A DNA stretch of 64,000 nucleotides, taken from positions 1 through 64,000 of the forward strand of contig SUXQ01000012.1 in assembly GCA_015060905.1 (NCBI GenBank). The letters run 5' to 3'. A model generated the notes under the pieces. It ran no database searches. It was not told the origin of the DNA and worked only from the letters and a program-made list of their open reading frames with translations. This document shows, piece by piece, positions 898-47,570 of this stretch. How positions within the stretch are numbered: position 1 is the first letter of the stretch; every line of letters starts with the position of its first letter. This DNA comes from Bacteroidales bacterium. Its GTDB lineage: Bacteria; Bacteroidota; Bacteroidia; Bacteroidales; Bacteroidaceae. The translations under genes and the position numbers were made by a program.

Positions 898-1198
898 TTA
901 CGTTAGCGCTTTTTTCATTAACTTTTTCAACCATTGATTAGAGCATTGCTTGGTGAGCATTAAACTTTTAAGCAAACGGCATCAATCGCTTTTGGAAAAG
1001 CGTGAAAATTCGTGCAAGCGAGTAAGTAGAAGTTTACTTACATTTGCAAAGAGTGTAGCCGAAGTTCGTCAAAAGCAATACATTTTGTCTGCGCATGGCC
1101 TTTTCTCTACTTGTGCGACGAAAAGTAAGGATAGAAACTACTACCGATAAATTTACAATAAAAGGTTAAGAATAAAGACTACCGTAGAACACAAAAAA

Positions 1199-13830: not shown

Positions 13831-13919
13831 GAGATTGGTTTTTTATCTCTTTTGTTTGAATTCTATACTTTAAAAAGTGTGCCGCAGGGCTTGATTGCTG
13901 CCTATAATCTGCAACAGTT

Positions 13920-14100
13920 GCAAATATAGCAACAAACGAGCGAGAAATATCAAGTTGGCTTGAATATTTTTTGCAGCGAGTGCAGTATATGTTCGCCGTT
14001 TACGGCAAATATAGCAACAAACGAGCGAGAAATATCAAGTTGGCTTGAATATTTTTTGCAGCGAGTGCAGTATATGTTCGCCGTTTACGGCAAATATAAT
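13920..14100 (-). repeat. Structured intergenic element, locus A: two tandem 85-bp units plus the start of a third
   Basis: CAAATATAGCAACAAACGAGCGAGAAATATCAAGTTGG... begins at 13921 and 14006; CAAATATA recurs at 14091. Confidence 0.9.
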
Positions 14101-23318: not shown

Positions 23319-23462
23319 TATCTTTGCAACATAAATGTTGCGAAGATAGGCTGCACTCACTCTGTAACTTGCAAACAAGTTTGCGTTACGTTCGTTTGCG
23401 CTATTTTTGCAAACTGAATATTGCGAACATAGGCTGCGCTTACTTTGCAACATAAAGTCTGC
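23319..23462 (+). repeat. Structured intergenic element, locus B: one complete unit plus a partial second unit
   Basis: TATCTTTGCAACATAAATGTTGCGAAGATAGGCTGCACTCACTCTGTAAC...GTTACGTTCGTTTGCGCTATTTTTGC, then ...GCGAACATAGGCTGCGCTTACTTTGCAAC. Confidence 0.85.
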
Positions 23463-23508
23463 GAAAGGTTGGTCGCAATTACGTGATTTACGACAAAGAA
23501 AAAGGAAT

Positions 23509-27989: not shown

Positions 27990-28100
27990 TATCTTTGTAA
28001 AAGATATACTGCACTCGCTGTAAAAAATATAAATGCAAGCTTTATGTTTTTTGCTCGTTTGTAACAATCTTTGTGGTAAACGCAAACGTGTGTTGCGTTT
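27990..28100 (+). repeat. Structured intergenic element, locus D (diverged unit)
   Basis: TATCTTTGTAAAAGATATACTGCACTCGCTGTAAAAAATATAAATGCAAGCTTTATG...GCTCGTTTGTAACAATCTTTG; followed by hairpin AAACGCAA-acgtgtg-TTGCGTTT. Confidence 0.75.
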
Positions 28101-28207
28101 GATGTAAAATATAAAGTTATATCTTACGCTCTTTTGCCACGATGTTTGTGTTTTTGGACGGGCAAATATTTTTTAGTTTGCAGGGTGTAAAGCTATTAAT
28201 TGACAAA

Positions 28208-47477: not shown

Positions 47478-47570
47478 CAAAGATAGTGCAAACGAACGTA
47501 ACGCAAGTTTACTTGCTGGTTACAAAGTGAGTGCAGCCTATTTTCGCAACATTTTATGTTGCAAAGTTAC
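47478..47570 (-). repeat. Structured intergenic element, locus C (one unit)
   Basis: Reverse complement reads TAACTTTGCAACATAAAATGTTGCGAAAATAGGCTGCACTCACTTTGTAAC...GTTACGTTCGTTTGCACTATCTTTGC, closely matching locus B. Confidence 0.88.

Follow-up and report, generated by a model that had tools for sequence, protein, structure and literature searches.

Correia elements of Neisseria and the BOX and RUP elements of pneumococcus are small mobile repeats that can supply promoters or stand in modular arrays, and are unrelated in sequence and phylum to the element considered here. Closer in form are the REP sequences of the TnpA-REP/RAYT systems, which are related to IS200/IS605; like our element, REPs are short, non-coding, intergenic imperfect palindromes that carry a mid-stem bulge, are strand-specific and occur in clusters (PMC8266576, PMC6006769), and TnpA-REP substrates are typically bulged, strand-specific hairpins (PMC8266576). 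TnpA-REP subclass 2.6 (RAYT group 5) is found mostly in Bacteroidetes, where it is flanked by 'atypical secondary structures' that lack the GT[AG]G motif and have copies elsewhere in the genome (PMC6006769). Two further systems resemble the element within the Bacteroidales. BrickBuilt and the PgRS/464 MITEs of Porphyromonas gingivalis are intergenic repeats with internal tandem repeats, in which IS5-like terminal inverted repeats enclose 23- or 41-nt tandem units, and BrickBuilt carries promoters (PMC4596501). PINSR, a high-copy non-coding intergenic repeat of 188 bp without terminal inverted repeats, was reported solely in the Prevotella intermedia/nigrescens clade (PMC4755523). In this phylum the -7 box of the primary sigma factor, sigma-ABfr, is TAnnTTTG (PMC7366714).

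We analyzed a 64,000-nucleotide stretch of a draft Bacteroidales genome (the window), for which a preliminary description had set out four intergenic loci, A to D, sharing a box-hairpin-core-hairpin-box architecture. The sequence at all four loci reads as stated there, but several details required revision (Table 1). Rather than four single copies, locus A is a tandem pair, and B and D are each followed by a decayed partial unit. The claim of TAnnTTTG-like boxes at both ends fails at the right end of D. Hairpin 1 does pair, as claimed, but its extent had been drawn too short, since the left box itself takes part, TAnnTTTG pairing with CGAAnnTA in 32 length-matched distinct sequences. The unit can be written as TAnnTTTG-arm-AA-arm-CGAAnnTA-(2-4 nt)-CTGCACTCRCT-hairpin 2-YTCGTTTG-(2-5 nt)-TAnnTTTG, with a length of ~66-90 bp. 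Two ends occur: a C-type, with GTTTGCAC ahead of the box and, in this genome, a GTAAC..GTTAC hairpin 2, and a T-type, with GTTTGTNNN ahead of the box and an AAATATT.. hairpin 2. When 45 copies from this genome were made into an nhmmer profile and the window was searched with it, the five well-conserved copies scored E values of 2e-17 to 2e-24, and the reversed window used as a control gave zero matches.

Table 1. Coordinates of the repeat copies, their parts, decayed units and neighboring genes in the window.
Feature	Position	Strand	Remarks
Locus A	14098-13921	-	two tandem 85-bp units with common boxes
Copy A1	14006..14098	-	pattern and nhmmer; bare box here in relatives G012 and G002
A1 left box, native	14098-14091	-	TATATTTG
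A1 hairpin 1	14098-14071	-	
A1 core	14070-14063	-	CTGCACTC; then hairpin 2 and linker GCTCGTTTG
A1 right box	14013-14006	-	TATATTTG; common to A1 and A2
Copy A2	13921..14013	-	tandem to A1
A2 terminal box	13928-13921	-	TATATTTG
Position of the native box, with a weak inverted repeat behind it	13895..13928	-	TATATTTGCAACTGTTGCAGATTATAGG; aligned to TATATTTGCAACACATTGCAAC of G012; possible relic hairpin 1
pyrB start	ATG 13830	-	3' of copy A2
Copy B	23319..23409	+	pattern and nhmmer
B left box	23319-23326	+	TATCTTTG
B hairpin 1	23319-23348	+	
B core	23351-23358	+	CTGCACTC
B hairpin 2	23364-23389	+	TT bulge 23369-23370; central AA 23377-23378
B right box	23402-23409	+	TATTTTTG, preceded by linker GTTCGTTTGCGC
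Decayed partial second unit behind B	23402..23473	+	nhmmer E 0.0011
PBP1A-type gene behind locus B	start 23509	+	Pfam Transgly and Transpeptidase
Copy D	27990..28073	+	pattern and nhmmer
D left box	27990-27997	+	TATCTTTG
D hairpin 1, short	27990-28008	+	
D core	28009-28016	+	CTGCACTC; then hairpin 2
D right box	28066-28073	+	AATCTTTG
Strongly decayed second unit behind D	28066..28148	+	ends GATGTTTG; nhmmer E 0.17 only
MORN-repeat gene behind locus D	ATG 28208	+	Pfam MORN
Copy C	47478..47569	-	pattern and nhmmer; empty site in G002, native box TAACTTTGCACC
C left box, native	47569-47562	-	TAACTTTG; then hairpin 1
C core	47536-47529	-	CTGCACTC
C hairpin 2	47523-47498	-	CA bulge 47518-47517
C right box	47485-47478	-	TATCTTTG
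DUF1573 gene behind copy C	start 47401	-	
Relic copy without intact right box (sixth, decayed)	1001..1092	-	nhmmer E 3.7e-4

Further copies, which the preliminary description had proposed to look for, were found throughout the genome. The pattern CTGCACTCN{20,50}CGTTTG matched 49 times in the 2.54-Mb draft (reversed control, 0), one match (C30:21296) looking like chance, and ~19 additional copies with an altered core or linker were recovered among apparent lone halves of the element. The total is thus ~65 copies, standing singly or in head-to-tail arrays of 2-4. The same loose pattern was matched 5 to 37 times in each of the 24 further genomes sampled from the genus, some matches in the lowest-count genomes (such as G006) looking like chance. 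A stricter pattern matched 15 of 131 genomes in the family, from 5 of 30 genera; in the order it matched 7 of 395 genomes, from 4 of 208 genera. Among the matches listed in named genomes were Prevotella, Segatella, Leyella, Marseilla, Alloprevotella, Bacteroides, Muribaculaceae and other Bacteroidales. The element is spread across many gut and oral Bacteroidales, with a patchy distribution beyond its own genus; proteins of the host species itself match ruminant Bacteroidaceae MAGs at 84-90% (tblastx). Carriage by phages or plasmids was considered and rejected: plasmid and phage records gave zero matches to the element, and among 2.9 million viral contigs there were four pattern matches, one of them a real copy. 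This copy (IMGVR_UViG_648276715_000002) is a tandem pair of a short Prevotella-like type on a putative provirus contig. Five contigs of the draft genome (C16, C22, C26, C27 and C29) end in or near element arrays and N runs in two other sequences (L040 and L047) fall in or near them, so that short-read assemblies probably undercount the repeat. We also observed a sister repeat of equal plan, with the core GGATTCGGCTCGG or GGCTGCGTCTCGG in place of GGCTGCACTCRCT (L023, L028, L026, L153 and L335), which often shares arrays with the main element in this genome and its relatives.

Comparison with relatives located the insertion point. Empty sites were present at seven loci, namely those of pyrB, DUF1573, tdh, rsfS, an rpoE-like sigma gene, the gene behind L008 and engB, and at each the break lies inside TTTG|CA, with the native box on the left and the element's box on the right. 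Ahead of pyrB, for example, G012 and G002 read GATTCATTATATTTG|CA where our genome reads GATTCATTATATTTG|CCGTAAACGG, then the two units, then TATATTTG|CAACTG. Ahead of the DUF1573 gene, TAACTTTG|CACC in G002 corresponds to TAACTTTG|CAACAT...TATCTTTG|CACAGG; G021 and G044, close relatives of each other, differ in this array by a single unit whose hairpin 2 is distinct. For tdh, the box is bare in all four relatives; in our genome the left box, TATATTTG, is identical to the one in G012 and G002, and on the right stands the element's TATCTTTG. The remaining four loci agreed with this, TTTTCTTTG being the native box at the rpoE-like sigma gene. These seven sites indicated that the left box is native and that the right box arrives with the element. 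Taken together, dispersal, tandem arrays, empty sites in relatives and insertion on the -7 box support the earlier suggestion of a promoter-carrying, REP/MITE-like repeat. Since the relatives with empty sites are ~72-87% identical in DNA, very recent insertion is not documented; the repeat was probably once mobile or still is, and it may be active today.

We then compared the arms of the hairpins. On a full MAFFT alignment, RNAalifold returned five pairs only, because the hairpins differ in length, a problem solved by a length-matched subset of 32 distinct sequences. In this subset 94.8% of cells in both hairpins were paired, and nine pairs showed double changes (76 cells), while sliding the columns by 1-3 lowered pairing to 34-52% with at most 7 double-change cells. 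None of 500 shuffles reached the observed paired percentage or covariation score, and covariation was significant in both hairpins. The double change between copies B and C (GCAAAC/GTTTGC versus GCAAGT/ACTTGC), noticed earlier, is one instance. Selection on structure, as first proposed, is supported by this strong covariation, but the level at which it operates looks to be that of DNA. Of 108 distinct cores, 71 had C-G and 35 had T-A as the innermost pair of hairpin 2, flanking the central AA; this count was drawn from Watson-Crick palindromes, and fixed columns agreed (CG 20/32, UA 10/32). Two nucleotides are too few for the loop of an RNA hairpin, so covariation at the AA center looks to be maintained in DNA. 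The arms of hairpin 2 were also not equivalent: among 218 distinct sequences, 128 had a mostly pyrimidine bulge of 1-2 nt in the 5' arm and 19 had a bulge in the 3' arm (binomial 2e-21), compared with 15 and 17, respectively, in shuffled sequences. Such a strand-specific bulged, imperfect hairpin is a feature of REPs. The bulge and the pairing up to the AA center point to an element read as DNA, probably in single-stranded form, and not to an RNA leader.

Mutation by palindrome correction may also account for the covariation, and this possibility forms part of an explanation that dispenses with a transposase altogether. Units would then multiply at the common box TATCTTTGC, through slippage and recombination there, and template-switch (quasi-palindrome) correction would keep the palindromes perfect and by itself yield double changes. 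The tandem arrays do have a period equal to the unit, some look like plain tandem duplication, and the boxes are short direct repeats: left and right box agree in 50 of 59 leftmost T-type copies, with 25.5 expected. Duplication of the target box, or a match between element and target, would also fit this agreement. C-type copies had no clear excess (52 of 76, 44 expected). Nearly identical units nevertheless lie dispersed at unrelated loci. In comparisons of array units from five genomes, the better match was a copy elsewhere in the genome in 29 cases and the neighbor in 17, with 28 ties. Correction would also erase the one-sided bulge, which is conserved. We consider this explanation distinctly improbable.

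The orientation of the element to genes is nearly fixed. The common orientation reported for the four loci held across the genome, with 27 of 28 arrays facing the next gene (binomial p 1e-7), and the last TAnnTTTG box lay a median of 39 nt ahead of the ATG. An ORF of at least 80 aa started at most 250 nt from the last box in 161 of 180 cases, against 55 of 156 leftwards. In a search of this genome that required no box, the right box was intact in 29 of 31 copies by a lenient and 24 of 31 by a strict definition, and the left box in 14 of 26; a larger comparison was biased, as most of its loci came from patterns demanding the right box. No TTTG at a fixed -33 position was found, TTG occurring at any one spacing in at most 31 of 128 T-type and 36 of 132 C-type copies. 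The right-hand box is predicted to act as a promoter.

Could the element instead be a selected regulatory module, a promoter with a structured leader or operator that tunes the downstream genes, its arrays serving as multi-promoters? Consistent sense orientation, promoter-distance spacing, the conserved right box and the strong covariation would all be in keeping with such a module, as would the conserved T.G pair opposite the box (29 of 32 hairpin 1 sequences), which keeps the pairing while removing TTTG from the reverse strand. However, the downstream genes are, as previously stated, unrelated in function by their Pfam domains, the corresponding genes of relatives have only a bare box, covarying pairs at a 2-nt center are useless to RNA, and Rfam gave no matching family. 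We judge this module unlikely. An RNA leader or riboswitch was rejected on the AA centers, the unrelated genes and the lack of an Rfam match, and the structured 5' leader or regulator target of the preliminary description, taken as the primary explanation, was not supported, given the unrelated genes, the freely diverging arms and the bare boxes in relatives.

The reading that we favor, and hold to be reasonably probable, is that of a mobile repeat, non-autonomous and strand-specific, which takes the sigma-ABfr -7 box as its target and restores that box. The element would insert directly behind the TTTG of a TAnnTTTG box; the native box would stay upstream, where it would often decay, and the element's right-hand box would replace it ahead of the native downstream sequence. 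Box replacement at insertion would fix the orientation to the gene and spare the gene. Every copy would end in a new target box, so that further insertion behind it would produce head-to-tail arrays. Insertion on a fixed strand behind TTTG, bulged hairpins, arrays built on the end box and the lack of terminal inverted repeats together resemble the single-strand transposition of IS200/IS605 and REP elements. Presumably an enzyme acting in trans, either a transposase or a recombinase, recognizes the hairpins as folded single-stranded DNA.

We searched for the enzyme. Searches that included lone halves in the host genome turned up neither an autonomous parent nor a cognate enzyme; the halves examined had been candidates for the separated ends of a parent, but were mostly whole divergent copies, with a few relics or chance matches. 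The Y1 transposase domain PF01797 had 0 matches in the host genome (a draft, 87.5% complete), which removed a resident Y1/RAYT as the mover, and none in 28 of 31 genus genomes, while controls, including E. coli, were positive. Two genus-mates do carry Y1 transposases that have the NHLH and YIHNNP motifs seen in TnpA-REP subclass 2.6 (L223:1417-1950 and L224:1321-1944, both plus strand), flanked by multi-hairpin repeats of 116-128 nt with a TGACACTCAT linker. Their hairpin-TGACACTCAT-hairpin plan is loosely like the hairpin-CTGCACTCRCT-hairpin of our element, a common plan that we treat as a lead, not as homology. Together with the phylum and the atypical flanking structures of subclass 2.6, and with the bulged, strand-specific hairpins, this lends some weight to a REP-like element of that subclass whose Y1 HUH transposase would have been lost from most of these genomes or would act sporadically. 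But PF01797 is missing even from copy-rich genomes, and the two RAYTs adjoin a different repeat, with none near the element in 1.54 Mb of DNA; we regard this origin as rather unlikely. Viral contigs had no subclass 2.6 RAYT, and plasmids distant ones only. Beside these, there is an IS200-like transposase gene (L222:1408-2240, class 1.2-like YIAIQEEHH motif); the 78-bp tandem array next to it contains CGCCCCTTCAGGGCTT hairpins and looks like a repeat system in its own right. The CTnDOT target, which we take to be GTANNTTTGC, resembles the element's TAnnTTTGC and is a lead only; this string did not occur in the open literature among the matches listed.

A bolder form of the favored reading, which we hold to be doubtful, is a new class of mobile element in which the core promoter box is the target and the folded single strand is moved by a non-Y1 (non-PF01797) enzyme. 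Complementarity between hairpin 1 and the box may then guide targeting, as hairpin 1 is complementary to the box variant, TATA occurring with CGAATATA and TATC with CGAAGATA. If true, the class rebuilds its landing box and can so accumulate and form arrays before essential genes. If the mobile repeat itself is accepted, promoters of many Bacteroidales genes would have been remodeled by a repeat landing on the phylum's unusual -7 box, which would bear on promoter evolution in major gut and oral bacteria, would explain assembly breaks and the tandem arrays ahead of genes, and would raise the question of what enzyme recognizes a bulged hairpin of DNA and inserts it at TTTG.

A match to an already named family had been sought as a refutation, and none appeared in Rfam or in the open literature on repeats. 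No Rfam family matched the window at gathering score, and a relaxed scan of locus B gave one chance-level match (E 0.29). No description of the element was found in the open literature; subscription papers and supplements fell outside this search, so that an earlier description is possible. The known systems differ from the element in definite ways. In contrast to REPs, it has two hairpins per unit, is tied to a promoter box and lives mostly in hosts without Y1, and its consensus lacks the GT[AG]G foot, the conserved flanks being CTGCACTCRCT and YTCGTTTG. It shares with the subclass 2.6 repeats the phylum, an atypical multi-hairpin form without GT[AG]G and, in the two genus-mates examined, a hairpin-CACTC-hairpin order, but those repeats have another sequence, are larger and are linked to a RAYT as the element is not. 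Its two-hairpin unit has neither the terminal inverted repeats nor the short tandem units of BrickBuilt and PgRS, and by described size and host range (many Bacteroidales genera) it is set apart from PINSR. MITEs have terminal inverted repeats in common with a parent IS; the element has none, its ends being direct box repeats and its palindromes internal. As to a MITE-type target-site duplication, left and right boxes agree beyond expectation in T-type but not clearly in C-type copies, and native TAACTTTG and element box TATCTTTG differ at DUF1573. We know of no -7 box targeting by Correia, BOX or RUP elements, and to our knowledge safe-harbor landing on a promoter box is known for no other bacterial repeat. 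We class the element as a small structured and probably mobile repeat that its promoter-box target sets apart.
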